DNA of 64,000 nucleotides from Fibrobacter sp. UWEL (GCF_900142535.1 NZ_FRBE01000013.1:1-64000), one strand, 5' to 3'. Shown: positions 1-21,259, counted from the stretch's first letter. Program-made: numbers and translations. Notes: generated by a model from the letters alone, not told the origin.

Positions 1-389
1 CGCAAACCTCTCGCCGTAGCGTGCTACGGCTTCGCTGCGCGCGCCTCGTCCTGCTTGGTCCCGAGAAAAATACCCGCGGGAAATGTCTTGAGTACGCCTT
101 CGGCCCACGGCTCCTTCCATCGCTAGGCACTGAGCGAAAAACCGTCGGGCGGGGGTCTCCGTACGGCTGCGGCACTCGCGCCTCGCATCCCTCGGCCATC
201 CGACGGAAACGTATCGGGCTTGCGTCTGGAGAATGTTTGGCGCGCGCCTTGCCCTGCTAGGCACTGGATGAAAAACCTTCGGGTGGATGTATTCTGTATT
301 TTTTTGAAGGTCGAGAAAGTCTGCTGGGAATGGTCGGCGGGCTTAATTTTCTTGAGCTTTTCGCTGGAAAAATTGCTATCCTTTGAGGT
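1..389. repeat. GC-rich intergenic region with palindromic repeat fragments
   Basis: I see no convincing gene here; the open frame at 21-260 has no RBS and arginine-rich, family-less composition. Positions 13-20 and 23-30 form a perfect 8-bp inverted repeat (GCCGTAGC/GCTACGGC). The stretch 171-205 closely matches the right half of the long palindrome after pgk (57966-58000), and 30-65 resembles it more weakly. A second pair of similar words (GGCACTG...GAAAAACC) lies near 125-145 and 261-280. This suggests a decayed or multi-copy extragenic repeat. Confidence 0.5.
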
Positions 390-2252
390 ATGAAACCGAC
401 TCTTTCAATGGTGTTACAGCTACCGCCTTCTACAGCGTATTCGATGCTGGATGCGGTTGCGAAGAACTTGCTTATGGGTATCAGCAAGATGCTGGAATCC
501 GGCAAGGTGCGCTTTACTGTTTTTCTAGATGGTCCTACTCTGGAAGCTGCACATAGTGCTGCGCGTCCTCTTGCGTTTAGCCGCTTGAGGAAGGCTGTTG
601 AAGATGGTTATCTTGAAATTTTAGGCGGTGGATTCTTGGATCCCATGCTGCCCTTGTTCCCGACGGACTTGCAGTCGCTGCAGCTGGAACAGCACCGCAA
701 GCTGGTACAGAAATTTTTTGGCTTAGAACCTGCGGGCTATTACAATTCCTCTATGGTTTGGGAAATGGAGATGACGGAACTTCTGGAGAAGAACCGTTTT
801 GAATATGCTCTCGTGCAGGAATCGGCCTTGCAGGATGCCTTGGGACGTTCTACGTCTGTGTCGGGCTGGTATTCTGTGGAAGATAAGGGTTCTATCCTGA
901 GGGTGGTTCCTGTATCTGAAAAGCTTTCTCAGGCTATTGCCAACGATGATTTTAACTGGCTGGAAATTGCAGAACCATACTGCCGTGACGGTAGATCTGC
1001 TGTTGTTGTCCTGGATATGCCGCCTGCTCCCGGCGATATTGTGCCGTTCTTTGAACGTCTGATTGACTTTATCGAGACCAACGACATCGCGACGAAGACG
1101 GTGGGCGCTGCGGTGAACGACCAGAACTCTGAAGGTCGTCTCAGCTTCCTGGTTTCTGCGGGTAGACGGATTGGTCTGCCGGCCACTGCCAAGACATGTC
1201 GCGAACTGCTGGTGCGTCGTCCGGAGATTAACTTATTCCACAAGATTCTTCTTTCCTTGTTCCGCCGCGGTAACGCTGGCCTGAAGGACAAGACCCGACA
1301 GAAGTTTCTGGAGACTTTGTATCCTTCCGTGTCTCCCATATTCTATCGTGACTTGCAGGATTCCGAGGGTATGCGTTCTCCCCAGGTTCGATACTGGGGG
1401 AATTGCTTCGTGACGAAGTCTTCTGCATTTTTGGCAGAAAATCTTTCTTTTGATGGCATCCGTCTGGAGATTGCGGATGTTCTCCTGGAAGGACGAAAGT
1501 TGATTACGGCAGAGAACCATACCTTTACGTTCCTGCTGGACTACTTTGGTGGTGGCGTGCTGCGCTACTTGAATTCCAAGATTACGTCTTGCAATGTCCT
1601 AAGTTCCTGGCGTGACGATGGCGAAGCTGCTGTGGGATTTCAGGATTATTTCCTGCCCAATATGGATTACAACGCGTCTAAGCTGGATCAACTTCTGGCT
1701 GACCGTGAGCATGCACTGACCGCACCTTACGACTATCAGATTAAGCGTCATGAGGCTGGCACGGACATCGAGCTTTTGTCTGAACAGCCATTATCCATCG
1801 GCGAAAAACTGGGGTTACTTCAGATCCAGAAGAATTTTGCCTTGTCCTCTGCGGGCTCAGACTTTAAACTATCCTACCATGTTGAAAACACTGCCTTTAC
1901 CCTCCAGAAGGGTTTCTTTGGGTTCCTTTTGGAAACTGGCCTGGCAGCTTGCGAACGTAGGGAAAGCTCTGTACTGGTGGATGGTAAGAAGATTCCCTTT
2001 AGCTTTAGGGAAGGGGTGATTTATCCGGAAGCCCGCAAGGTTGAAATTGTGGACTCTTACTCTTCCTGTCATCTTCATCTGGAATTTGACAAGCCTACCA
2101 GTATCCTGCTGTCTCCCATTTTCGGTGCATCCAGTTCCTCTGCTGCACCTGACGCACTGCAGGGCATTCGCGTGTTCCCCTTCTGGAAGACGGCTATGGA
2201 AAGTCTTGGGGTTTTCGATGTGAACGTTCAAGTCCATTTTTCCAAGAGGTAA
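390..2252 (+). CDS. GH57-like protein with degenerate catalytic motifs
   Basis: 620 aa, no signal peptide. The N-terminal half follows GH57 4-alpha-glucanotransferases: residues 77-89 (ILGGGFLDPMLPL) match the family's E-(I/V)-x-x-x-G-(F/Y)-x-(E/D)-P-(M/V)-L segment, and 119-141 matches the nucleophile strand. Where the family has T-E-R-V-W with the nucleophile Glu, this protein reads S-S-M-V-W (Ser121). The later HDDGEK segment reads LDMPPA (208-213), and the NDAYWHG block is not recognisable. The C-terminal half looks like the beta-rich domain of the same enzymes. It starts an operon with a STAS/coiled-coil membrane protein (5-nt gap) and a lytic transglycosylase. Inference: a non-catalytic, perhaps glycan-binding, GH57 relative. 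It could be an active enzyme with shifted residues. Start ATG 390 follows TTGAGG closely. Confidence 0.6.
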   Translation: MKPTLSMVLQLPPSTAYSMLDAVAKNLLMGISKMLESGKVRFTVFLDGPTLEAAHSAARPLAFSRLRKAVEDGYLEILGGGFLDPMLPLFPTDLQSLQLEQHRKLVQKFFGLEPAGYYNSSMVWEMEMTELLEKNRFEYALVQESALQDALGRSTSVSGWYSVEDKGSILRVVPVSEKLSQAIANDDFNWLEIAEPYCRDGRSAVVVLDMPPAPGDIVPFFERLIDFIETNDIATKTVGAAVNDQNSEGRLSFLVSAGRRIGLPATAKTCRELLVRRPEINLFHKILLSLFRRGNAGLKDKTRQKFLETLYPSVSPIFYRDLQDSEGMRSPQVRYWGNCFVTKSSAFLAENLSFDGIRLEIADVLLEGRKLITAENHTFTFLLDYFGGGVLRYLNSKITSCNVLSSWRDDGEAAVGFQDYFLPNMDYNASKLDQLLADREHALTAPYDYQIKRHEAGTDIELLSEQPLSIGEKLGLLQIQKNFALSSAGSDFKLSYHVENTAFTLQKGFFGFLLETGLAACERRESSVLVDGKKIPFSFREGVIYPEARKVEIVDSYSSCHLHLEFDKPTSILLSPIFGASSSSAAPDALQGIRVFPFWKTAMESLGVFDVNVQVHFSKR

Positions 2253-2257
2253 CCTAG

Positions 2258-2947
2258 ATGCAATCCGATATGATTAACATCCAGGTGGAATCCAGGGATA
2301 ATGACGTTGAAATTACCCTTTCCGGATCTCTTGGCTTTGCCCAATACTCCGCAGTAAAGGAAAAGCTTGCCATGTTATTGGACGGCCCCGGCTGTTTCTT
2401 TTACATGAACTTGAAGCAGGCTCACTTTACCAGCGACAAGTACTTGGACCTGTTCCTGGAATTGTTGAATGGCGCTAAGGCCCGTAAGGCCGCATTCATC
2501 TTGATTTTCGATTCCGAGGAGATGTACAACTACTTCGCCCGCTATCAGAATATCTTCCAAATTTTTGAGAATCGTGAAGCGTACAAGAAGTCCGGCACCA
2601 AGAAACAGTTGCTGCAGATTGGGATGCATTATGGTGTCCGCTCTGGCATTACGGTGAGCCCGGGTGTGGCGGTTTCCTTCCTGATGTTCCTGCTGGGATG
2701 GATCATTACGCTGTTTATTATCGTGTCCAATCAGGGGGCTGAACTGGCGGATAAGCAGGCTCAAATTATTGCTCTCCAGAATCAGAAGTCCCGATACATC
2801 CAGGAAATCGACAAGCTGGAGGCTTCCATCGGCCCCTTGCGTAAGCTGGGTGTAGTGCAGGATACTACGATGCTTAGTTCCTTCGGCTTGATTAGTAGCT
2901 GGGTGGAATATCTTGAATACCTGGAGAATACCAGGCGTGAGAGGTAA
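2258..2947 (+). CDS. STAS-like domain, one membrane helix, C-terminal coiled coil
   Basis: 229 aa, unnamed. Residues 5-110 look like a STAS/anti-sigma-antagonist fold: alternating strands and helices (DVEITLSGSLGFAQYSAVKEKL; FYMNLKQAHFTSDKYLDLFLELL; AAFILIFDSEEMYNYF). A helix of about 22 hydrophobic residues follows at about 133-156 (VAVSFLMFLLGWIITLFIIV), then a coiled coil (about 160-195, ELADKQAQIIALQNQ) and a short tail. Predicted topology: cytoplasmic STAS domain, periplasmic coiled coil. It sits between the GH57-like gene and the lytic transglycosylase and overlaps the latter, so the three are probably translationally coupled. The transglycosylase has a similar TM plus coiled coil, so the two may pair in the membrane (inference). 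Confidence 0.6.
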   Translation: MQSDMINIQVESRDNDVEITLSGSLGFAQYSAVKEKLAMLLDGPGCFFYMNLKQAHFTSDKYLDLFLELLNGAKARKAAFILIFDSEEMYNYFARYQNIFQIFENREAYKKSGTKKQLLQIGMHYGVRSGITVSPGVAVSFLMFLLGWIITLFIIVSNQGAELADKQAQIIALQNQKSRYIQEIDKLEASIGPLRKLGVVQDTTMLSSFGLISSWVEYLEYLENTRRER

Positions 2948-3623
2948 TGTCCGCATATCACCTATTTGGGTGGGACTTTTCTTTGTGCTCTGGTTTGGAA
3001 GCCTAGGGCTCTTTGTGACCCTTTGGTTTAATCAAAAAACTGAACTAGACAATCTTGCTGCGCAGGAAACTGAACTTCGTAACCAGCTTGAACAGCTGGG
3101 TGGTTATGGCAGGTGGACCATTGACTATGTGAAGATAGACAAGGCTTTGAACCACCTGAGCAAGAATAAACTAACGGACGAGCAGAAACGGATGCTTACG
3201 GAACAGCTTTGGCAGATTTCCAGGTCCTATGCCACGGATCCCTTGCTGATTTTGGCGGTGGTAGCCCAGGAAAGCCGTGGCAATCCTAATGCCCGCGGTC
3301 GAGTGAAATCGGGAAAGTTTTCGGGGGCGCTGGGCCTGATGCAGATTAAACTTGAAACTGCAAAATCCATGAGCGCGAGATTTGGCTTGAAAATCGAGAA
3401 GGAAGAGGATTTGCTTCGTCCTGAAATCAATGTGACGGTGGGTACGGCTTATCTGATCCGCCTGATCGCCAAGTACGGGAATTGGAAAGACGCTCTGGTG
3501 GCTTATAATTTGGGACATTCGGCGGTGGACCGCCTATTGGAACAGGGGAATCCTTTGCCCACCAATTACTATGAGCATGTGATTGCAAAGTACAACGACT
3601 TAATGAGTCTATCTTTTTTGTAA
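2937..3623 (+). CDS. Membrane-anchored lytic transglycosylase (SLT, GH23-like)
   Basis: About 228 aa. It would cleave peptidoglycan glycan strands non-hydrolytically in the periplasm. An N-terminal transmembrane anchor and a short coiled coil (ELDNLAAQETELRNQLEQL) precede an SLT domain with the catalytic-Glu motif AVVAQESRGNPNA, the GALGLMQI motif and the late AYNLG motif, all in family order. The start is uncertain. GTG 2937 has GGAG 10 nt upstream and overlaps the previous gene by 11 nt; TTG 2913 has GGTGGA and would add 8 residues. There is no ATG. It is the third gene of the operon. Confidence 0.8.
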   Translation: MRGNVRISPIWVGLFFVLWFGSLGLFVTLWFNQKTELDNLAAQETELRNQLEQLGGYGRWTIDYVKIDKALNHLSKNKLTDEQKRMLTEQLWQISRSYATDPLLILAVVAQESRGNPNARGRVKSGKFSGALGLMQIKLETAKSMSARFGLKIEKEEDLLRPEINVTVGTAYLIRLIAKYGNWKDALVAYNLGHSAVDRLLEQGNPLPTNYYEHVIAKYNDLMSLSFL

Positions 3624-5752: not shown

Positions 5753-6499
5753 GTGTGCATAATTCTATGCGCATTGGCAGCCCTTGTTTTATTTTTCCCG
5801 TTTACCTTCTGGGTGCATGGGGAAATCGATGAACGGATGGCGAAAGCCTGGGGATACTTTTTCAAGAAGAAATTTTTTGAGGTGGAAAAAGTTTTCGGCG
5901 AAGAGGATGTTGCCGGAATGCCGCAGGATGTTGCGGAGTCGGAACCGTCCGCTGTGCCCGCCGGAGAAAAGCATGTTGAACAAAATCCGGAAGTGTTCCG
6001 CGCGGAAGCGGAGTCTGCAGTAGCGCCGGAGGGAGCGGAAAAGGAAAAGCGTTCCCTGACGGAAACGGAATTCTGGACCATTCTCCTGACACCTGAATTT
6101 GACGAGAAAGCCTGGTGGGCTGTAAAGAAATTCCTGGTGGGATTTTGCAGACTGTGCCACCTGAAGTTTATGAACTGCTTTGTGGAAGGGATTCGTTTTG
6201 AATACGCCACCATGGGACAGTTGGCTTCCCTCAATGCTTTCCTGAAGTCTTATCCCTACATTGGGGACTGGGACTTCCGTATGGACTGGACGGGCGATCA
6301 CGAATTGCGCGGTGAAGGTCATGCCCGAATTCGCGTGAATCTTTGTCGCTTGATTGGCTTGATCCTGATTATCCTGTTCTATGGCGGTATTGTGCTGTGG
6401 AGCTTCTGGCGTCGTAGAGCCCAGGTGCTGAAAACGGGTGAACTGCCTGAACTGGGCTGGATTAGAACGAAAATTGTGAAAATGATGGCGGAGGAATAA
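5753..6499 (+). CDS. Membrane protein with N- and C-terminal helices
   Basis: About 248 aa, not assigned. A hydrophobic segment at the N-terminus (IILCALAALVLFFPFTFWV) is followed by a charged Pro/Glu-rich linker (residues about 50-100) and a soluble part. A second helix lies near the end (LIGLILIILFYGGIVLWSFW). The segment FRMDWTGDHELRGEGHARIRVN just before the last helix faintly recalls DUF2953-type proteins. The start is unclear: GTG 5753 lacks a good RBS, and the hydrophobic frame continues upstream to 5720 through non-standard codons. It overlaps the pseudouridine synthase start (TAATG). Confidence 0.55.
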   Translation: MCIILCALAALVLFFPFTFWVHGEIDERMAKAWGYFFKKKFFEVEKVFGEEDVAGMPQDVAESEPSAVPAGEKHVEQNPEVFRAEAESAVAPEGAEKEKRSLTETEFWTILLTPEFDEKAWWAVKKFLVGFCRLCHLKFMNCFVEGIRFEYATMGQLASLNAFLKSYPYIGDWDFRMDWTGDHELRGEGHARIRVNLCRLIGLILIILFYGGIVLWSFWRRRAQVLKTGELPELGWIRTKIVKMMAEE

Positions 6500-7230
6500 T
6501 GCCGGCTTTGACTTTGGAACGACTGATTGCATCAATTGGCTTTGGCTCCCGCAAGGAAGCCCGCGCTCTCATCCGCGCCGGCATGGTGGAACTGGACGGA
6601 AACGTTCTGGATGATCCGTTTATTGAGTTTAAGACCCGTCCCGAAACCATCGTCGTGAATGGGGAAGAAACTCCCACGGTTGAAAAACTGTACATCATGA
6701 TGGACAAGCCTCTGGATGTGGAATGCAGCCATAACGCTCGCGACCATCAGTCCATCTATGATATTCTGCCGGATCGTTTCACTGCTATGGGCCTGCAGTC
6801 TGTGGGCCGTCTGGATGCAGATTCCTCCGGATTGATTTTGCTGTCTAACCAGGGTGATTTCATCCATAAGGTAGAAAGCCCCAAGAAAGGCTACCTGAAA
6901 AAATACCGTGTGACCTTGGCTCGTGAATTTACGGCCGCCCAGAAGGAAGAACTCCTGAAGGGCGTGATGCTGAAGGACGAACGCCGCCCGGTGTTGGCCC
7001 GTGAGCTTTCCGAGGAACGCATTGTGGTGGACGGCGCAGAAGTCGATACGGTGGTCATTTCCATCGGTGAAGGCTTGTACCATCAGGTTCGCCGCATGTT
7101 CGCCGCTGTGGGCAACCATGTGATGACCTTGACCCGAGAAGCCATCGGCCCTGTGACTATGGACGAAACTTTGGGCAGCGGCGGCTGGCGCTTCATGACT
7201 GAAGAAGAAGTTGCCTCGCTGACGAAGTAA
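6499..7230 (+). CDS. RsuA/RluB/E/F-family pseudouridine synthase
   Basis: 243 aa. It would isomerise a uridine in rRNA. An N-terminal S4 RNA-binding domain (LERLIASIGFGSRKEARALIRAGMVELDG) precedes the catalytic domain with GRLDADSSGL, where the Asp of GRLD is catalytic. The family's C-terminal block follows (YHQVRRMFAAVGNHVMTLTREAIGPV). I cannot say which position it modifies; overall it resembles RsuA (16S) at least as much as RluB. Start ATG 6499 overlaps the upstream stop, with GGAGG just before it. Confidence 0.85.
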   Translation: MPALTLERLIASIGFGSRKEARALIRAGMVELDGNVLDDPFIEFKTRPETIVVNGEETPTVEKLYIMMDKPLDVECSHNARDHQSIYDILPDRFTAMGLQSVGRLDADSSGLILLSNQGDFIHKVESPKKGYLKKYRVTLAREFTAAQKEELLKGVMLKDERRPVLARELSEERIVVDGAEVDTVVISIGEGLYHQVRRMFAAVGNHVMTLTREAIGPVTMDETLGSGGWRFMTEEEVASLTK

Positions 7231-7257
7231 CGCTTTGAGACATTCCTAAGTAAAAAC

Positions 7258-7290
7258 AAAAGCCTCGGTTTAGAACCGGGGCTTTAAAAC
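7258..7290. terminator. Bidirectional intrinsic terminator
   Basis: Stem AAAGCCTCGGT / ACCGGGGCTTT (one G-U) around loop TTAGA, with A-rich and T-rich flanks. It lies between the convergent pseudouridine synthase and HU genes. Confidence 0.75.
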
Positions 7291-7363
7291 TTTCAGAGTA
7301 TAGCTAAATTTGTTCCGCTTGACTTTATTGGGCAAACGGAACTTGAGAATCGTTCAAGATCGC

Positions 7364-7735
7364 TTAGGCGTCTTCTTCGGACTTGACCGAGATCATGACG
7401 TCCTTGTCTTCGGATTCCAGCTTGGCGTTGACGCCTTCGACAATAGCTTCAAGAGAGTTGATCTTGTCCTTGATGTCGTTGCTGAACTTGAAGGAAGGAA
7501 CCATGCGTTCTTCGATCATGACGGTTTCGCCGGTACGAGGATTACGAGCCGGGCGAGACTTGCGGGGCTTGCAACTGAAGGTACCGAAACCGCGGATTTC
7601 GATAGTATTGCCTTCGATCAGCTTTTCGCCTACCAGGTCGAGGAACTGTTCGATGACGGTTTTAATATCGTTGCGCACAAATCCGGTGGACTTGGCGATT
7701 TCTTGAATGAGAGTCTGTTTAGTAATATTAGGCAC
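7364..7735 (-). CDS. HU/IHF-family DNA-binding protein
   Basis: 123 aa, slightly longer than the usual 90-100. It should bend and compact DNA as a dimer. The family signature is present (TIEIRGFGTFSCKPRKSRPARNPRTGE), ending in a strand arm, with an acidic C-terminal extension of about 25 residues (VKSEEDA end). Start is GTG at 7735, the first initiator after the upstream stop. TATATT lies at 7742-7747 (minus strand), exactly 6 nt before the GTG, so the mRNA may be leaderless. Confidence 0.9.
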   Translation of the reverse strand: MPNITKQTLIQEIAKSTGFVRNDIKTVIEQFLDLVGEKLIEGNTIEIRGFGTFSCKPRKSRPARNPRTGETVMIEERMVPSFKFSNDIKDKINSLEAIVEGVNAKLESEDKDVMISVKSEEDA

Positions 7736-9140: not shown

Positions 9141-12100
9141 ATGAAGAAGAAATTTGCTTTGTCTGCCGCAATGCTTACTGCCCTTGGTTTGGCAACTGCC
9201 GTACAGGCCGCACAGAATGTTATCAAGGTCGACGATACTAAGCCGGGTATTGTGATCAAGAAAGATATGATGATGGCTGCTGACTTGGCCATTTGGAATC
9301 CGCCTAGCCGTTACTACGATTTGACCGACGCCTTTGTGGATGGCGGTTATCAGCTGTACCGTTTCCCCAATGGTTCTTTGAGTAATGATTACCACTGGAA
9401 TGGCATTGGTAAGTATGATAGCACGGGCCTCTGGATTTCTACTGAAGAAGAAGGCAAGTATGCTCCGGGCTTTTTGGGTGAAACGATTTACCGCGGCACC
9501 ACCAAGGACAACTACGGTTTTGTTCGTCGCAGCCACTTGGCTGATGGCAACATGAATACCATTTGGTGGGGCGAAATTCTGGACCCCAATGACCCGCCTT
9601 GGGTGGTGGTGGAATTCCCGGCAAAGAAGAACATTGACTCCTTGCAGATTAGCTGGGGTGACCTGCGCCCCAAGGCTTTCCAGTATGAATACTGGACTAC
9701 AGATTATGCGGAGTATCCGGGTGTCCATCAGGCTCTCACCAACGACTTAAAGTTGGAAGCCAAGGTGAAGGTGACCGGCCCTGAAACCATTTATAAGGGC
9801 AAGTCAGTGCACACTCGTTATGTGGCAATCCGCTTTAAGTTGCAGGATTTGCCGGGCAAGGGTGTACAGATCCGCGAAATGAAAATGTTCAGTAATGGTG
9901 AGGATTTGCTGGCTGGCAACGAGTACAAAATGTACGCTATGTCTACCCGCAACGGCGACAAGGCTCGCACCGACTGGACTAACATTCCCTGGCACTTTGA
10001 AGAATTCATGACTTATATCAATGGCTTGCCTAAGTCTGCCAATGGCAAGCCTGCTCAAGCTGTGATCTGTGTGAACGCCGGTACCGGTACTTCCAAGGAA
10101 GCTGCCGCCTGGGTGAAGTACGCCAACAAAGTAAAGGGCTACAATATTAAGCAGTGGGAAATCGGTAACGAACTGGACGGCGAATGGGAAGAATCCGGCC
10201 CCATTTCTGCCCGCCATTACGCCGCACGATTCCTGGAATACGCTCGCGCCATGAAGGCGGTGGACCCCACGATTATTATTCACGGTCCGCTGCTCAGTAC
10301 CCACAAGATGATGCAGAAGGGTGCCGGCATTCTTGATGGAAAATACTGGATGGAAGAATTCCTGCGCATTGTGGGCGAGGCGGAAAAGGCCGACGGCAAG
10401 CGCTACCTGGATGCGATGGACTTGCATAACTATCCGTACTGGACTCCCAACGGCGCCAACGCCAAGGACATGCTGAAGGCCATGCTTGATGTGGGCCCCA
10501 ATATGGATACGCTGGACGTGTGGATGAAGCGCCACTTGCCGGGTGTGGACAAGGTCCCGTCAGCTTCTGGTGAAGATAAGCGTCGCGTGTTCCTTTCTGA
10601 ATTTAGCACCAACGTTCAGGGCTATAGCTTGCTCATGGATTACCCCCAGGCAACTGCCATGGCCATGATTTTTGCTCAGCATGCGGTGCGCTTTGGCGAC
10701 CGTTTACAGGTGCTGCCCTGGGATGCATTCGGTAATCTCTTCAAGAGCCCCGATGACACTTGGGGTACTATCAGTATGTCGGCCCTTTTGAAGGAAGGTT
10801 CCTGGAACAAGTGGAAGTCTTTGGAGCCGACCGCAGAATACTACGGCCTGTATATGACTTTCAAGCGATTCCTGGAAGAGGGTTTCGCTGTGGTTCCTGC
10901 GGAAAGCAATAATCCCGATGTGGTGGCCTATGCGCTGGCTTCTCCTGCGGGCAAAAACGGCGCCGCAAATTCCGCTCGCGTTTTGCTTGCAAACTTAAGC
11001 GACGTGGCTCAGGTGGTGCAGATTGATCGCGCTTCCGTGGGCGCAGGCGCTGACAATGCCTCCATCGAAGTGGACGTTTTCGGTGAAGAACAGTTCAAGT
11101 GGGTGGGCGACCAGAAGAATGCCTATCCTTATCCGAAGATGGGCCCTAGTGGCAGAAAGCTTGACGTGAAGAAATCTCGGGACATTACCATTCCTCCTTT
11201 TGGTGTAGTTGTCGCACAGATCAATCCCAATGTTTCTAAGAACGCAGGTGCTCCTGTTGTTCTGGCAGCCGCCCTCGAAAAGAAGGTGATGATGCTTGGC
11301 GATACGCTGGATCTGTTTGGAACGGTTTCCCAGCAGGATGGCCAGATTACTGGTGCAACCCTCAAGGTTCCTGGTTTCGGAAAGAACGGCGCTGCAGCAA
11401 CTGTAAAGATTACACCGGACGATGGCAAGTGGGATGCCGCCATCGAAAGTTTCCATGTGAAGGTTCCCGTGCCGGAATATGCAAAGGCTACTCCCGTAGT
11501 GGTGCAGGGCACTGGTGCCAAGGGTACTGAAATGGAACTGACCGTTACTGGCCTGGGCGGCAAGAAGACTGTCCAAAAGATTCCGTTCCGCATTCGTGGC
11601 AAGTATCGTACCACAAGTATTTTGCAGAACTTCGATAACGGCCTGGACGCTGTGGAATGGTTCCCGGTGGTGGGCGAAGGCAATACAGAAATGAACGCCA
11701 AGGTCTTTAACGGAAATCCGCCCCATGGTGGCTTTATCCGTCATGACTTCCACATCGAACAGCCGCCTACTCAGGGTTGGCCCAACTACTCTGGCGCTTA
11801 CTATGTGGTTCCTCCGGAAATCAAGAAGTCTGTAGGTGTGGTGTTTGACTATGCCACCAACCACAACAATCCCGATGGCTATATCGAAGTGCAGGTCCAG
11901 AGCGACCAGGTGAAGGATTACGACGAATTCATGGTCCGCCTGAAAACCACCCGCGGCAACTGGATGCGCGATACCCTCATCTGGGAAAACATGGCCCAGG
12001 AAGGTTGGGGCAAGACAATCCCCCAGCTGGATCCTACCAAGATCAAGACCATCAACTTCCGCGCCCGTCATAGCGGTGTGGGCTACATCAGTCTGGACAA

Positions 12101-15021: not shown

Positions 15022-15284
15022 ACCGAGGGCAATTTAGTTTTTTTTGGACCTGCTCGCAAGGTAGGCGAGCCTTTCAAAAACCGCAAAACAACCAAAAAAT
15101 GTGCAGTTTTTTCACAAACCGTATTACAATATTTGTTTGTAAGTAAAATGTGATTTTAGGGACGGGAAACGTTGAGGGATGGGCGGCGGTTAGGAACTTA
15201 TCATATTCAGCAATTGTTCCTTCATTTTTCCTCTGTCCACCCCTTGCCTTAATTTTTTAAATACCTAGCTTTAGGTGCGTCCAA
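15022..15284. other. Intergenic region with promoter-like AT tract
   Basis: No gene seen. It contains a GC hairpin (GCTCGC...GCGAGC, 15053-15074) behind a T-run, AT-rich blocks, and a TTGCCT (15244-15249) with A/T-rich DNA after it. The last may be the promoter of the peptidase-ligase cassette. Confidence 0.4.
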
Positions 15285-15378
15285 TCGACGACCCGGGAAA
15301 ACGTCCCGACAGCCGCCAGTTTAGGCCAGCGCCCGCATCAATTTGTTGACGCCGACTGTCTTAAAAAGAAGGCATACG
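15285..15378 (+). ncRNA. Structured-looking 5' leader of the amidoligase cassette
   Basis: Three nested or successive helices can be drawn. The first is CGGGA/TCCCG (15295-15309). The second is an outer stem GACAGCCG (15308-15315) with CGACTGTC (15353-15360), one mismatch. The third is an internal hairpin GC-A-TCAA/TTGA-C-GC (15335-15352). It ends just before the RBS (AGAAGG, 15367-15372). It matches no riboswitch class I know; the first and second helices overlap by two bases and may be alternatives. Confidence 0.35.
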
Positions 15379-16074
15379 ATGGACATCAAAATATTGCCGC
15401 AGCCTGACGATGTCACTTGCGGCCCCACGAGCCTGCACGCTGTGTACGAGCATCTTGGTTACAAGATACCCCTTAAAAAACTTATTTCCGAAATTGAGTT
15501 CCTGGAAGAAGGTGGCACCCTGGGGGTGTTCCTGGGAATCGACGCTCTGAAGCGCGGGTTCAAGGCGACCATCCATTCCTACAACTTGAAGATTTTCGAC
15601 CCCACCTGGAACGGGTTGAAAATGCCTGCCCTCCGGGAAAAACTGGTTTTGCTACGTCGCGCGAAAACGGCACCCAAGCTGCGGAAGGCCATCGAGGCGT
15701 ACATCCGGTTTATTGACCTGGGCGGAACGGTGGCCATGTCCGACTTGCGGGCATCCATGTTCCAGAAGTATTTCAAGAAGAACGTTCCTGTTCTTTGCGG
15801 TCTTTCGGCCACTTATTTGTACCAGTGCATGCGTGAATTTACCGACGAAAATGACAAGTCCGTTTTCGACGATATTCACGGGGATCCTTGCGGCCATTTT
15901 GTGGTGGCTTACGGGCTAGATGAAAAGAACCAGTTCATGGTGGCGGATCCGGACTGCACCAATCCCTTACATAAGAACCCTTACTATAAGGTCGACAAAT
16001 TCAGATTTTTGCATAGCATCTTGCTTGGCGTCATGACCTACGACGGCAACGTGCTTGTGATTGAAAAGGCATAA
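15379..16074 (+). CDS. Papain-like (peptidase C39-like) cysteine peptidase
   Basis: 231 aa, no signal peptide. The Cys-His-Asp set is visible: DVTCGPTSLHAV (Cys14), GHFVVAYG (His173) and MVADPD (Asp190), the arrangement of C39-like/papain-fold enzymes. Start ATG 15379 has AGAAGG 6 nt upstream; a TTG at 15343 is rejected. It is the first gene of a four-gene cassette, separated by 2 nt from the RLAN-ATP-grasp gene. In known clusters of this kind a papain-like enzyme accompanies RimK-type ligases and may trim or transfer the product; the substrate here is unknown. Confidence 0.8.
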   Translation: MDIKILPQPDDVTCGPTSLHAVYEHLGYKIPLKKLISEIEFLEEGGTLGVFLGIDALKRGFKATIHSYNLKIFDPTWNGLKMPALREKLVLLRRAKTAPKLRKAIEAYIRFIDLGGTVAMSDLRASMFQKYFKKNVPVLCGLSATYLYQCMREFTDENDKSVFDDIHGDPCGHFVVAYGLDEKNQFMVADPDCTNPLHKNPYYKVDKFRFLHSILLGVMTYDGNVLVIEKA

Positions 16075-16076
16075 TC

Positions 16077-17579
16077 ATGAAAAAAATAATCGTGGTGAAT
16101 AACCCGAAGAACTGGAAATTGAATGTTCCAGGCGTTGATGTGGTATCCGCACAGGATTACCTGATTTCCCAAAAGTACGTTGGAGAAAAAAACACTCGCG
16201 TGTTTAACCTTTGCAGGGATTACTCCTATCAAAGCAAGGGCTATTATGTGTCATTGCTGGCGGAGGCTCGCGGGCATAAGGTGATTCCCGGGGTCAAGAA
16301 CATGCGCGATTTCAAGACCACGGCGGTGATCAAACATATTTCCGATGAAATTGATAATCTGATCCAGCATAGTTTGCACAAACTAACGGGAACAGAATTT
16401 GTTCTAAGTATTTATTTCGGCCAGAATGTGAGCCCCCAGTACTTGGAACTTTCCCAGGAACTTTACAAACTTTTCCAGGCCCCGCTGCTCCGCGCCAAAT
16501 TCGTGTTTAAGCAGAAGTGGTTTATCCAAAGTATTCGCCCCATTTGTGTGGATGAAATTCCTGAGACCCACATGGAAATGGTGAACAAGTTTGCCCAGGA
16601 ATACTTTACAAAGAACCGTTACGCCAGCGCCCCTGATGAAGACTACTTGTACGATTTGGCCATCCTTACCAATCCCGATGAGAAGGAGCCGCCCAGCAAT
16701 GCTCAGGCCATTCAGAATTTTGTGAAAGCCGCCGAAGAAACGGGCTTTCGTGTGGAACTGATTACCAAGAAAGATTATGCACGAGTGGGGGAGTTTGACG
16801 CTTTGTTTATTCGTGAAACCACTAACGTGAATCATTATACTTACAGTTTTGCCCGTCGCGCTCAATCCCTTGGTATTGCTGTGATTGATGATCCTGACAG
16901 TATATTACGTTGTTCTAACAAGGTGTATTTGCAGGAGTTGATGCAGGCTGCAAAAATTCATACTCCCAAGACCATTATTGCTCATTCCGAAAATCGCCAT
17001 ACTCTGGCAAAGGAAATCGGATTCCCTATGGTTATCAAGTCGCCGGATTCCAGTTTTTCTATGGGCGTGAAAAAGGCTAAGGATAAGGAGGAACTGGAGA
17101 AGATTCTGGATCAGATGTTTGAACATAGCGACCTGCTTATTGCCCAGGAATTTACTCCTACGGATTTTGACTGGCGTATTGGCGTGCTGGATGGAAAGCC
17201 CATTTACGCTTGCAAATATTACATGGCCAAGGATCACTGGCAGATTTACAACTGGGAAAGTAAGGATAAGGATGAAATCTGCGGAAACTTTGATTGCCTG
17301 CCTATTGAAAGTGTGCCCCACGGCGTGGTGAAAACGGCGCTGAAGATTTGCAGCATGATCGGTAATGGCCTGTATGGTGTAGATCTGAAGGAGTGGAAGG
17401 GGGAGCCCATTGTGGTGGAGGTCAATGACAATCCCAGCATTGACGCGGGCATTGAAGATCAGGTGGGAAAGAAAAAACTTTATACGGCAATCATGCGATC
17501 CTTGCGCCACCGCATCGAAGACCGCTTGAATGCTGCGCAGCAGAAGATTCTACAACACGAAAGAGAGTTTTATTTATAA
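16077..17579 (+). CDS. RimK-like ATP-grasp ligase with N-terminal RLAN domain
   Basis: 500 aa. Residues 1-185 match the RLAN domain that precedes some RimK-type ligases (KKIIVVNNPKNW, YVSLLAEARGHKVIPGV). The ATP-grasp domain (about 205-480) includes LFIRETTNVNHYTYSFARRAQ, the lysine strand FPMVIKSPDSSFSMGV, LLIAQEFTPTDFDWRIGVLDG and the metal-binding VVEVNDNPSIDAG. Such enzymes join a carboxylate to an amine via an acyl phosphate, typically adding glutamate. It sits between the peptidase and the GCS2-type ligase, so the cassette has two distinct amide-bond-forming enzymes. Confidence 0.9.
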   Translation: MKKIIVVNNPKNWKLNVPGVDVVSAQDYLISQKYVGEKNTRVFNLCRDYSYQSKGYYVSLLAEARGHKVIPGVKNMRDFKTTAVIKHISDEIDNLIQHSLHKLTGTEFVLSIYFGQNVSPQYLELSQELYKLFQAPLLRAKFVFKQKWFIQSIRPICVDEIPETHMEMVNKFAQEYFTKNRYASAPDEDYLYDLAILTNPDEKEPPSNAQAIQNFVKAAEETGFRVELITKKDYARVGEFDALFIRETTNVNHYTYSFARRAQSLGIAVIDDPDSILRCSNKVYLQELMQAAKIHTPKTIIAHSENRHTLAKEIGFPMVIKSPDSSFSMGVKKAKDKEELEKILDQMFEHSDLLIAQEFTPTDFDWRIGVLDGKPIYACKYYMAKDHWQIYNWESKDKDEICGNFDCLPIESVPHGVVKTALKICSMIGNGLYGVDLKEWKGEPIVVEVNDNPSIDAGIEDQVGKKKLYTAIMRSLRHRIEDRLNAAQQKILQHEREFYL

Positions 17580-17602
17580 CGACCATAGGACGTACCGCAT
17601 AC

Positions 17603-17708
17603 GTCATCCTGAACGTATCAACGAACGATGTCATCCTGAACGTAGCGAAGCGAAGTGAAGGATCTAGATCCTTCGACTCCATGCCTTCGGCATTCCGCTC
17701 AGGATGAC
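17603..17708. repeat. GTCATCCTGA palindromic repeat between ligase genes
   Basis: Outer arms GTCATCCTGA (17630-17639) and TCAGGATGAC (17699-17708) are perfectly complementary. An 18-bp palindrome GAAGGATCTAGATCCTTC lies at 17657-17674. A partial extra copy begins at 17603. The transcript would form a long hairpin in the middle of the cassette. Confidence 0.9.
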
Positions 17709-17723
17709 GATTGGAGAATAATT

Positions 17724-18974
17724 ATGACCAACTACAAGTTATGGCAAAAATACGGCATCGAGATGGAATACATGATCGTTGACCGGGATACTTTAGATGT
17801 TCTCCCTCGTGCCGATGTGCCTCTGGGAAAGGACAAGAACGGCGAGCAACTTTCCGATGTGGAGTACGGCCCCATCGGACTTTCCAACGAGCTGGTGAGC
17901 CATGTGCTAGAATTGAAATGCGCATCACCGGTTGATAATCTTAAAAATCTGGGCGGGCAATTCCATAAGGAAATTTTGCGGGCCAACGAAAAATTGAAAT
18001 CTATTAACGCCATGCTTTTGCCAAGTGCGGCCCATCCCTTTATGGATCCGGCGACGATGCAGTTGTGGCCTTATGACTGCAATGAAATTTACGAGACTTA
18101 CGACCGCATTTTTAACTGCAAGGGCCATGGCTGGGCTAACCTGCAGAGTACTCATATTAACCTGAGTTTTAATGGCGATGAGGAATTCGGAAAACTGCAT
18201 GCTGCCATTCGTGCCTTGCTGCCGCTGATTCCCGCCATTGCGGCATCCAGCCCGTTTTTGGATGGCGCGTACTGCGGTTTTCGTGATGGCCGCATAGAAA
18301 CTTACCGCCATAATCAGGACCGAGTTCCCAGTATTGCGGGGCAAGTCATTCCTGAGGCGGCTTTCACTTATGACGAGTACAACAAGCAGATTTTCGAGAA
18401 GGTGAAGGCGGATATTGCGCCCTACGATCCGGAGCATTTGCTGAATCATTTCTTCTTGAATAGTCGCGGGGCCATCGCTCGCTTTGACCGCGGTGCCATT
18501 GAGATTCGTCTGGTGGATATTCAGGAATGCCCCGATGCGGATATCGCCATTGCGGAGTGGGAAGTTGCTGCGTTAAAGGGCCTGGTGGAGGGCGCCTTTA
18601 GTGGCGCGAATCTGGGATCGGTTTCTGCGGCCGTTCGCAGTTTGGATACGTCGGCGCTGGCAAAGATTCTATTGGACTGCACTCGCTTCGCTGAAAAGAC
18701 AGTTGTTAGCGATCGGGCCTTCCTCAACGTGTGGGGTATTAACGCAAACGAAATCACCGCAGGCGAAGTGGTACAGCATATCTTCCAGGTGGTTAAGGGA
18801 AAAATCTCTGGACACTCCCAGGAATTGCTCCGCAAGATGTTCAAGCGCGGGACCCTCGCCAGCGCCTTGGTAAAGAACGTTGGCGCAGACCCGGGCCGCG
18901 ACGATTTCGTATGCGAATACGGACGCCTTTCCCGCTGCCTTGCCGAGAACGAACTCTATGACATAGAGGAATGA
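17724..18974 (+). CDS. GCS2-family carboxylate-amine ligase (YbdK-like)
   Basis: 416 aa from ATG 17724, with GGAGA about 7 nt upstream; upstream in-frame codons lie in the repeat. The fold is that of glutamate-cysteine ligase type 2: YGIEMEYMIVD (metal-binding Glu), QSTHINLSFNGDEEFG, YDEYNKQIFEKV, and GAIARFDRGAIEIRLVDIQECPDADIAIAEW. The family makes gamma-glutamyl-type amides; YbdK itself has weak glutamate-cysteine ligase activity, and the true substrate of this branch is not known. It is the third gene of the cassette. The next gene resembles an enzyme that releases glutamate from N-acyl-glutamates. Confidence 0.85.
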   Translation: MTNYKLWQKYGIEMEYMIVDRDTLDVLPRADVPLGKDKNGEQLSDVEYGPIGLSNELVSHVLELKCASPVDNLKNLGGQFHKEILRANEKLKSINAMLLPSAAHPFMDPATMQLWPYDCNEIYETYDRIFNCKGHGWANLQSTHINLSFNGDEEFGKLHAAIRALLPLIPAIAASSPFLDGAYCGFRDGRIETYRHNQDRVPSIAGQVIPEAAFTYDEYNKQIFEKVKADIAPYDPEHLLNHFFLNSRGAIARFDRGAIEIRLVDIQECPDADIAIAEWEVAALKGLVEGAFSGANLGSVSAAVRSLDTSALAKILLDCTRFAEKTVVSDRAFLNVWGINANEITAGEVVQHIFQVVKGKISGHSQELLRKMFKRGTLASALVKNVGADPGRDDFVCEYGRLSRCLAENELYDIEE

Positions 18975-19055
18975 ACAATTAACAATGAACAATTAACAAT
19001 GAAAGATGAAGAGTGTCATCCTAAGCGAAGCGCGGAGCGCGAAGTCGAAGGATCT
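18971..19055 (+). repeat. 14-bp tandem repeat plus a dispersed repeat supplying an RBS
   Basis: ATGAACAATTAACA occurs twice in tandem (18971-18998). It is followed by a GTCATCCT...GGATCT repeat (19015-19055) with internal inverted GCG-rich arms. The repeat's AAGGAT lies at 19048-19053, 7 nt before the FGase ATG, so the repeat may supply the ribosome-binding site. Confidence 0.75.
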
Positions 19056-19060
19056 AATGC

Positions 19061-19711
19061 ATGTCTCAAAATGATTTCAAATTAATGATCACCTGCGAGC
19101 ACGCCAGCAACGAATTGCCAGCCCGGGTGAAGGATCTGCGAATCTCCCAAGAAGATCTCGATTCTCACCGAGGTTACGACATCGGTGCTTTCGCTGTGTA
19201 CGAAGAACTTGTGTCAAAGTTCAAACCGGATTTTTACAGCTCCGGGCGCTACTCCCGACTTTTTGTGGACTTGAATCGTAGCTTGCGGAACAACAAGTTT
19301 GCGAGCCCCGCGGGAATCGCCTATCACGAATCCTACTGGGGTGAAGTGGAAAAATTCGTGGTGCAGAACTTACCCGAAATCAGTGAGGATCCTTCTAAAG
19401 CAGGGTGTGTCCTGCCTGCAATCGTGCACTTGGCCATTCACAGTTTTACTCCTATACTAGATGGCCGCACCCGCAAAGCCGATATAGGGATCCTTTACGA
19501 CCCTAGTCGCCCTGCAGAACGAGAAATTGCTGACATCATCGTCGCCGAAATCCGCGTAAGATTCCCCCAGTACAAAGTCCGTCGCAATTATCCTTACCAG
19601 GGCAAAACCGATGGCCTCTGCACCGCTCTCCGCAAAAAGTTTGACCCCCATAAAACGGGCTGTTACGTAGGCCTTGAAATCGAAATCAATCAGAAATTGC
19701 TGTTGCGTTAA
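19061..19711 (+). CDS. N-formylglutamate amidohydrolase-superfamily enzyme
   Basis: 216 aa. Motifs of the FGase superfamily: MITCEHASNELP (metal-binding Glu and His), SHRGYDIGAFAVYEEL, GRYSRLFVDLNRS and VHLAIHSFTP, then a conserved GLEIEINQ near the end. These zinc hydrolases release glutamate or aspartate-type products from N-acylated forms; in amidoligase clusters they could hydrolyse the ligase product or an intermediate. It is the last gene of the cassette, 86 bp after the GCS2-type gene, the gap being filled by repeats. Confidence 0.85.
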   Translation: MSQNDFKLMITCEHASNELPARVKDLRISQEDLDSHRGYDIGAFAVYEELVSKFKPDFYSSGRYSRLFVDLNRSLRNNKFASPAGIAYHESYWGEVEKFVVQNLPEISEDPSKAGCVLPAIVHLAIHSFTPILDGRTRKADIGILYDPSRPAEREIADIIVAEIRVRFPQYKVRRNYPYQGKTDGLCTALRKKFDPHKTGCYVGLEIEINQKLLLR

Positions 19712-19823: not shown

Positions 19824-19847
19824 CGAATGTTTTTTGTTGGGGGTTGC

Positions 19848-20441
19848 GTGTCAAAAGTTGATTTGTTGAAGGATGTGTCTGCGCAGTACAATGGGATGGT
19901 GCTTAATTCAAACGCTGAATCCGCGGGAGTTTCTCGAGCGCAACTGTCTTCTTTGTGTAAGCTAGGGGAGTTGGTGCGCGTTGCCCAGGGACAGTATGTT
20001 TTGCCAGATGCTGTTCCTGATGAAATTTTCATGATTGCGAGCCGTTCCCAAAATTTGATCGTATCGCACGAGACTGCTCTCTTTTTACATGGTCTTTCTG
20101 AAAGGACTCCTTTTGAACATTCCGTGACTGTCCCCTATGGGCGAGCCCCTTCTACGCTCATAAAAAGAACTTGCAAGGTTTTTACCTGCAAGTCAGAGTT
20201 GTTTGATTTGGGCGTGACCGAGCTAAAAACCCCCTTTGGAAATTTAGTCCGTTGCTACGACTTGGAAAGGACTATATGCGACCTGATCAAGAATCGCTCC
20301 AGGGTAAGCAATGAATTGCTTTTGTCTGCGGTAAAAGCGTATGCCGCCTGGAATGGTAAGGACTTAAATAAACTTGCGGACTATTCAAAAAAACTTCGAG
20401 TGTCTAAAATCCTGAAGAGCTATTTGGAGGTCTTGCTTTGA
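19848..20441 (+). CDS. abiEi: AbiEi-type antitoxin/transcriptional regulator
   Basis: 197 aa from GTG 19848, with GGGGG 4 nt upstream; ATG 19827 would add seven residues and lie at the predicted transcription start. The N-terminal wHTH follows AbiEi (MVLNSNAESAGVSRAQLSSLCKLGELVRVAQGQYVLPD), then VSHETALFLHGLSERTPFEHSVTVPYG, and RCYDLERTICDLIKNRSRV. In type IV AbiE systems the antitoxin represses its own operon and antagonises the toxin. The palindrome over the promoter fits this. It overlaps the toxin gene by 4 nt. Confidence 0.9.
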   Translation: MSKVDLLKDVSAQYNGMVLNSNAESAGVSRAQLSSLCKLGELVRVAQGQYVLPDAVPDEIFMIASRSQNLIVSHETALFLHGLSERTPFEHSVTVPYGRAPSTLIKRTCKVFTCKSELFDLGVTELKTPFGNLVRCYDLERTICDLIKNRSRVSNELLLSAVKAYAAWNGKDLNKLADYSKKLRVSKILKSYLEVLL

Positions 20442-21259
20442 AAAATGCAATGAGCCTCAAGGCCTCCATTCGCAATAGGGCGAAAGAGTTGAGAATTCCG
20501 CCTCAAGTCCTTTTGCAAAATCTGATGTTTGAACGATTCATGCTGCGCTTGAGCAAGTCTCCTTATAGGGACAAGTTTGTTGTTAAGGGCGGCATGCTGA
20601 TTGCTGCAACTCTTGGGCTTAGCCGAAGATCTACTATGGATTTGGATATGACCCTGCAGGGGCTGGACTTGAATCCGGATGTTCTGAAAAGTACATTGCA
20701 AGAAATATGCTCAATGGATTTAGAAGATGGATTTTCCTTGAGCGTAAATCGCTTGGAGCCGATCCGTGAAGATGATTTCTATGGAGGGTTTCGCGTCTTC
20801 TTGGATGCGAAATATGAATTCATTGACGTTCCGATGACGATTGATGTTTCAACGGGAGATGCAATTACTCCTTCGCCCGAACGGGTGACGATTGCTGGCG
20901 CGATAGATGACTCTGTGAAAATACGATTGCTGGGGTATAACCTGGAAACTATTCTGGCGGAGAAAGTGGAAACAATTTTGAGTCGCTCTGTTTTTAATAC
21001 GCGGCCTAGAGATTTTTATGATGTCTATGCCTTGACGAAAAGCTGCAAGTATGATAAAACCGTTTTTGAAAAGGCTTTGGAAGCGACTTCTAAGCACAGG
21101 GAATCTGCTGAAAGAATCGGAAACTCAAAGGAAATTTTGGAAAGAATAGAGTCTAGTGAAGATTTGATGCTATTGTGGAAGAATTATTCGCAACAATTTG
21201 AATATGCAAAGAACTTGACCTATTCCGATGTTGTGTCGGCGTTGAAACAACTTGTGTAA
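20438..21259 (+). CDS. abiEii: AbiEii-type nucleotidyltransferase toxin
   Basis: 273 aa. Nucleotidyltransferase motifs of the AbiEii/AbiGii family: FVVKGGMLIAATLG (Lys50-Gly-Gly), SRRSTMDLDM (Arg63, Asp68, Asp70), MTIDVSTGD, and LETILAEKVETILSRSVFNTRPRDFYDVYAL. Close relatives transfer nucleotides to tRNA acceptor ends, inhibiting growth. Start is TTG 20438 with GGAGG 7 nt upstream and a 4-nt overlap with the antitoxin; ATG 20450 is too far from the RBS. All expected residues are present, so it should be active. Confidence 0.9.
   Translation: MKNAMSLKASIRNRAKELRIPPQVLLQNLMFERFMLRLSKSPYRDKFVVKGGMLIAATLGLSRRSTMDLDMTLQGLDLNPDVLKSTLQEICSMDLEDGFSLSVNRLEPIREDDFYGGFRVFLDAKYEFIDVPMTIDVSTGDAITPSPERVTIAGAIDDSVKIRLLGYNLETILAEKVETILSRSVFNTRPRDFYDVYALTKSCKYDKTVFEKALEATSKHRESAERIGNSKEILERIESSEDLMLLWKNYSQQFEYAKNLTYSDVVSALKQLV

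Follow-up and report, generated by a model that had tools for sequence, protein, structure and literature searches.

Separable ligase and hydrolase modules in a four-gene RLAN-ATP-grasp/GCS2 cassette of Fibrobacter: a candidate system for making and unmaking a small amide

Four co-directional genes on the + strand of a Fibrobacter genome (3.53 Mb, 99.98% complete) encode a papain-fold peptidase (PAP), an RLAN-ATP-grasp ligase (RLAN), a GCS2-type ligase (GCS2) and an FGase-like hydrolase (FGase), together spanning positions 15379-19711 of the 64,000-nucleotide stretch of DNA analysed here, hereafter the window (ORF calls and Pfam; Table 1). On balance, we favour the view that these genes constitute one unit which builds and breaks down a small amide or capped oligopeptide of non-ribosomal origin. 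All four proteins exceed the Pfam gathering cut-offs, and the cassette is located between a minus-strand aminotransferase/citrate synthase pair and an AbiEi/AbiEii toxin-antitoxin pair. An earlier note on the window had described a four-gene amide-ligase cassette running in a single direction, which is borne out by the ORFs, the Pfam domains and the catalytic-type residues. The start given there is 15285, whereas the first coding base is most likely 15379, the stretch upstream of it being promoter and leader.

Table 1. Features of the cassette region, in window coordinates.
Feature	Position	Strand	Basis or remark
Promoter/leader	15244-15378	+	TTG 15244-15246, TAGCTTTA 15266-15273, core GTCCAATCGACG 15279-15290, hairpin-rich leader up to the ATG
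PAP, C39-like papain-fold cysteine peptidase, 231 aa	15379-16074	+	Pfam, alignment, AF2 model
RLAN-ATP-grasp amide ligase, 500 aa	16077-17579	+	PF14401, RimK match, AF2 model
Intergenic insert with dispersed repeat copies	17580-17723		Probably not part of the system
GCS2-type carboxylate-amine ligase, 416 aa	17724-18974	+	PF04107 7e-20, invariant residues
Intergenic insert, same dispersed repeat (copy 19015-19035)	18975-19060		Missing where GCS2 and FGase overlap
FGase-like (N-formylglutamate amidohydrolase fold) metallo-amidohydrolase, 216 aa	19061-19711	+	PF05013 2e-16

In the scheme that we propose, GCS2 would use ATP to acylate an amine, probably that of an amino acid, and the RLAN-ATP-grasp enzyme would add a second amino acid or amine via an acyl-phosphate, again using ATP. 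Which of the two ligations comes first is conjectural, the sequence given here following that of GshA-GshB in glutathione synthesis. PAP and the FGase-like enzyme would then cut or trim the product, be it for turnover, for maturation or for proofreading. This build-then-cut proposal is derived from family chemistry: characterised members of the GCS2 and ATP-grasp families produce amides by way of acyl-phosphates, papain-fold enzymes cut peptide or isopeptide bonds, and FGase-type enzymes of known activity split N-acyl amino acids, a type of bond to be expected from the ligases.

The central ligase consists of an RLAN domain (residues 25-170) fused to a RimK-like ATP-grasp domain (approximately residues 190-480), which places it among the PF14401 amidoligases (7e-47, 159 bits compared to a gathering score of 25; RimK match 7e-12). 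In the AF2 model (pLDDT 83) the ATP-grasp part matches the folds of Ddl, RimK and LysX. The ATP/Mg residues K282, K321, D436, E448 and N450 are invariant in 62 RLAN sequences and, like the HWQ loop, are the same in 48 GCS2-type and 14 other RLANs. At the site of the RimK/LysX amino-acid loop the protein carries an invariant HWQI loop (HWQIYNW...G) devoid of the respective Arg; the Arg-containing loop of RimK (FRSNLHRGG) or LysX (HWITNTARGG) was not found in the RLAN-ATP-grasp protein. RimK-type glutamate transfer by RLAN was rejected on account of the missing amino-acid motif. The cut-offs for RimK-type alpha-L-glutamate ligases (TIGR00768, 80.2 of 143.4 bits; PRK10446, 34.3 of 331 bits) and for GshB (PRK05246, 29.6 of 272 bits) are likewise missed, and TIGR03103, the model of the NAGGN system, is absent among the 25 of 28 NCBIfam matches listed for RLAN.

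The second ligase scores 72 bits with PF04107 (gathering score 21), and its residues E13, E15, H104, H144, R190, R253, E260 and R262 are invariant, E13 and E15 being the metal-type glutamates of the GCS2 superfamily; here and for the other cassette proteins, invariance was judged in alignments of 27-36 homologues per protein. ATP and metal residues, whose presence in the ligases the earlier note had singled out for checking, are hence retained in both RLAN and GCS2. The GCS2 fold family includes glutamate-cysteine ligases, and one special case of the favoured model would be a glutathione-like thiol or gamma-glutamyl compound, in which GCS2 yields gamma-Glu-X and RLAN is the equivalent of GshB. 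The two-ligase logic agrees with GshA/GshB, and both the FGase and the GCS2 fold are linked to glutamate. However, GCS2 stays far under the GshA/YbdK cut-offs (gshA_cyan_rel, 45.4 of 176.4; gshA_cyano, 26.3 of 249), solved glutamate-cysteine ligases are matched only at E-values of 0.013 or worse, other lineages replace the GCS2 step by a GNAT protein (see below), and phytochelatin synthase is missing from the best 50 fold matches of PAP, for which reason a phytochelatin-synthase-like role of PAP was dismissed as well. We thus regard the gamma-glutamyl case as unlikely. As to the glutamate-containing product suggested in the earlier note, the RLAN ligase lacks the RimK/LysX Arg loop and the GCS2 protein is far below all glutamate-cysteine ligase/YbdK cut-offs; the argument for glutamate is therefore reduced to fold-level analogy to GCS2 and FGase.

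PAP matches PF13529 (1.5e-7) and PF03412 (2.7e-6), and Q8, C14, H173 and D190, invariant among its homologues, correspond to a papain-type Gln-Cys-His-Asp site. This site, together with the C39 fold matches, identifies PAP as a C39-like peptidase. Its AF2 model (pLDDT 90) is closest to the solved folds of the pseudomurein endoisopeptidase PeiR (3.6e-6) and of C39 peptidases, PeiR being the best match over the whole length. FGase scores 61 bits with PF05013 (gathering score 28.9) and is alike over nearly its full length to the solved structure 2odf (Atu2144; profile match 1.2e-32). The residues C12-E13-H14, D40, N72-R73, H123, H127, E206 and E208 are invariant, among which H14, H123, H127, E206 and E208 would represent a conserved metal site, as judged from the sequence. 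The gene does not lie in a histidine-degradation (HutG) setting. In an Ignavibacteriales cassette, FGase is fused to a C-terminal HD domain (HD_4; 10705-11967 of that locus).

With the RLAN protein as query, 80 loci were recovered from bacterial genomes, namely from Fibrobacter, Rufibacter, Pontibacter, Adhaeribacter, Imperialibacter, Geofilum, Alkaliflexus, Winogradskyella, Ignavibacteriales, Melioribacter and Desulfobulbaceae. Comparison of the RLAN neighbourhoods, which the earlier note had proposed as a check on whether the four genes stay together, revealed PAP-RLAN-GCS2-FGase in one order and on one strand in 66 loci (profile annotation of the scan and further loci). The order is kept in Fibrobacterota, Bacteroidota, Ignavibacteriota and Desulfobulbaceae, often with 4-bp overlaps, the median gaps along the cassette being +2, -4 and -4 bp. 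Shorter sets, some of which end at contig edges, comprise PAP-RLAN-GCS2 (19 loci), RLAN-GCS2-FGase (6 loci) and RLAN-GCS2 (23 loci). In the Bacteroidota group, 35 of 296 sampled genomes contain RLAN, as do 5 of 148 from the phylum of the Desulfobulbaceae genome; the unit is therefore patchy but widespread. Beyond the four genes, no conserved neighbour was seen in the related loci compared.

The same comparison bears on a ribosomally synthesised product. In such a graspetide-like RiPP pathway, the C39-like peptidase would trim a precursor peptide modified by the ATP-grasp enzyme; C39 peptidases cut double-glycine leaders (PMC10318531) and graspetides are made by ATP-grasp enzymes (PMC8939145). 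Against this stand the absence of any small ORF near the cassette common to more than 2 of the 35 lineages compared, so that a precursor gene near the cassette was discarded as a candidate, the usual gene overlaps, which leave no intergenic room, the lack of a transporter part in the PAP protein and the loss of PAP in lineages that keep the ligases. A RiPP thus appears very improbable.

The 168 Fibrobacterota genomes reveal an internal structure of the cassette. RLAN is found in 92, GCS2 in 93, PAP in 82 and FGase in 74 of them (two short FGase fragment matches excluded), and all four in 73, counts which come from related genomes, many of them incomplete MAGs, with kinship ignored. RLAN and GCS2 occur together in 90 genomes, RLAN without GCS2 in two and GCS2 without RLAN in three. 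The hydrolases are nested, that is, no genome of the 168 has FGase without PAP or PAP without GCS2, and nine genomes, one of them 99% complete, have the ligases only. One large Fibrobacter clade carries the cassette in two parts, an RLAN-GCS2 locus and a PAP-FGase locus, which on the same contig lie up to about 125 kb apart. Among the 20 split genomes with both hydrolases, 17 have an adjacent and often overlapping PAP-FGase pair, and the genes are on different contigs in the remaining three. Co-occurrence and the split clade thus indicate that the ligases act as one module and the hydrolases as another, dispensable one. In Flavobacteriales, RLAN-GCS2-FGase is found without PAP, genome-wide in the two genomes tested, and hence the link between the two hydrolases is not a strict one.

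In other bacteria, RLAN is partnered by a GNAT acetyltransferase instead of GCS2, either as an N-terminal fusion (proteins of about 650 aa), as the next gene or as a GNAT-DUF3335 fusion in the preceding gene, DUF3335 being a C39-like domain different from PAP. GNAT fused to or adjoining RLAN was verified in 13 loci. Neither the cassette GCS2 nor PAP was found anywhere in 12 GNAT-type genomes, while GCS2 was recovered in 6 of 6 GCS2-type genomes searched alongside. In an unrooted RLAN tree of 36 rows with verified partner labels, proteins of the GNAT type do not cluster together but make up two groups, of which one lies among the GCS2-type proteins, and a single GNAT clade is rejected (AU p = 0.0006). 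Most simply, GCS2 and GNAT would play equivalent parts in modifying an amine, with the ligation by RLAN as the constant step; in the GNAT-type systems acetylation would take over the GCS2 step, much as NAGGN, an osmolyte, and NAAG, a dipeptide, are capped by acetylation. Fusions of DUF3335 to GNAT domains are frequent according to PMC10318531, which cites the 2009 amidoligase paper for their possible action as peptide ligases or acetylases. The conserved two-ligase/two-hydrolase cassette of the earlier interpretation stands; its separable modules and the GCS2/GNAT exchange had not been seen there.

The GNAT partners are RimI-like, i.e. they belong to the N-terminal protein acetyltransferase family, and this is one of the observations consistent with protein modification. 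Here, RLAN and GCS2 would attach amino acids to a protein of the cell, as RimK does with ribosomal protein S6, and the two hydrolases, PAP and FGase, would take them off again. That RimK-like ligases can also modify a protein counts against the small-molecule model. Moreover, the fold of the ATP-grasp domain resembles that of RimK/LysX, the pairing of ligases with hydrolases that can be separated from them suits a writer/eraser arrangement, and an isopeptidase is the best whole-length fold match of PAP. Yet no conserved target gene lies near the cassette, RLAN lacks the Arg-bearing amino-acid loop of RimK/LysX, and GCS2 relatives of known activity act on small molecules, so that we assign only a low probability to protein tagging. 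Compared to a RiPP, for which a precursor gene is lacking, or to RimK-type glutamylation, for which the motif is absent, a small soluble peptide with a cap is the likelier outcome. More specifically, RLAN ligases may make a widespread, unrecognised capped di- or tripeptide with interchangeable caps (GCS2-acyl or acetyl) and a hydrolase pair dedicated to its turnover, a reading which we put forward tentatively and hold to be rather less probable than the general model; by analogy, such a peptide could be functionally comparable to glutathione, NAAG or NAGGN.

Each of these known systems resembles the cassette in part. Glutathione synthesis shares the succession of a GCS-type and an ATP-grasp ligase; in the cassette, however, the Gsh cut-offs are not reached, two hydrolases are attached and GCS2 is exchangeable for GNAT. 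Compared to RimK, the ribosomal protein S6 glutamate ligase, the RLAN ligase shares the fold of the ATP-grasp domain but has an extra RLAN domain, a different amino-acid loop and a fixed GCS2 or GNAT partner. The NAGGN osmolyte system, which we take to consist of the TIGR03103 GNAT-ATP-grasp protein, an amidotransferase and a peptidase, has an acetyltransferase, an ATP-grasp enzyme and a peptidase in common with the RLAN systems, and its product is a capped dipeptide. In contrast, only the GNAT part of an Azospirillum GNAT-C39 protein matches TIGR03103 (36 bits compared to a cut-off of 569), no NAGGN amidotransferase gene was seen adjoining the cassette, and the neighbours differ. Enzyme folds are further shared with the predicted RLAN/RimK-like ATP-grasp amidoligase neighbourhoods (Iyer et al. 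2009, doi 10.1039/b917682a). The folds and the idea of an RLAN-centred amide pathway are already known as predictions; the module split, the nested hydrolase loss and the repeated GNAT/GCS2 exchange are, to our knowledge and leaving the 2009 prediction paper aside, new observations. In line with the earlier note, which knew of no assigned product, neither a product nor a characterisation of the cassette or of RLAN ligases was found in the literature searched, which did not extend to that paper. At least four bacterial phyla contain RLAN ligases, the carriers including rumen and gut fibre degraders, Bacteroidota, Azospirillum and a Pseudomonas plasmid. The modular break-up (ligase versus hydrolase locus, GCS2/GNAT swap) yields a prediction as to which enzymes are responsible for making the product and which for its destruction, and it renders the product question testable with two purified proteins.

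Upstream of the cassette, the TTG-N19-TAGCTTTA arrangement presumably represents a Bacteroidota-type promoter. A block TAG[CT]TTTA...TCCA[AG]TCGACG is kept in the nearest relatives, recurs in 8 of the 18 other upstream regions read, occurs once in its own genome and is missing from more distant Fibrobacter; its 12-nt core GTCCA[AG]TCGACG lies just downstream of the putative promoter. The block is cassette-specific and probably in part promoter. Of the structured leader claimed in the earlier note, the folding propensity (z = -3.0 for 15240-15378) and the conserved block hold, but no fold is common to all relatives (eight leaders compared) and no Rfam family matches, a search at E-values up to 1 yielding only a chance snoRNA-like match outside the leader. 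A riboswitch was rejected on these grounds and because TAG[CT]TTTA fits a promoter element better. The gaps within the cassette do contain repeats, as noted before; however, for the core TCATCCTGARCGNAGCGAAG of this dispersed repeat, which lies at 17603-17709 and 19015-19055, 38 genomic copies were counted with no more than 2 mismatches (reversed control, 0), and at the RLAN-GCS2 position, where the window has an insert, most relatives show a 4-bp gene overlap. As a genome-wide element in gaps that most relatives lack, the repeat is thus probably not part of the system.

Three further observations concern the surroundings of RLAN genes. Directly 3' of the cassette, at 19827-21259, lies the AbiEi (PF13338)/AbiEii (PF08843) type IV toxin-antitoxin pair; in the gene lists read for related loci, this pair is not apparent beside the cassette. 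A circular 9-kb record of Legionella adelaidensis, labelled a plasmid, contains RLAN-GCS2-FGase (41-3232) beside fur, bamE, rnfH and ratA-like genes; since these are usually chromosomal, the record may be misassembled. A lone RLAN ligase (5908-7497) is found on pZYPA1927, a plasmid of P. aeruginosa, close to a glutamate/aspartate ABC transporter and to a gene for a gamma-glutamyltransferase.
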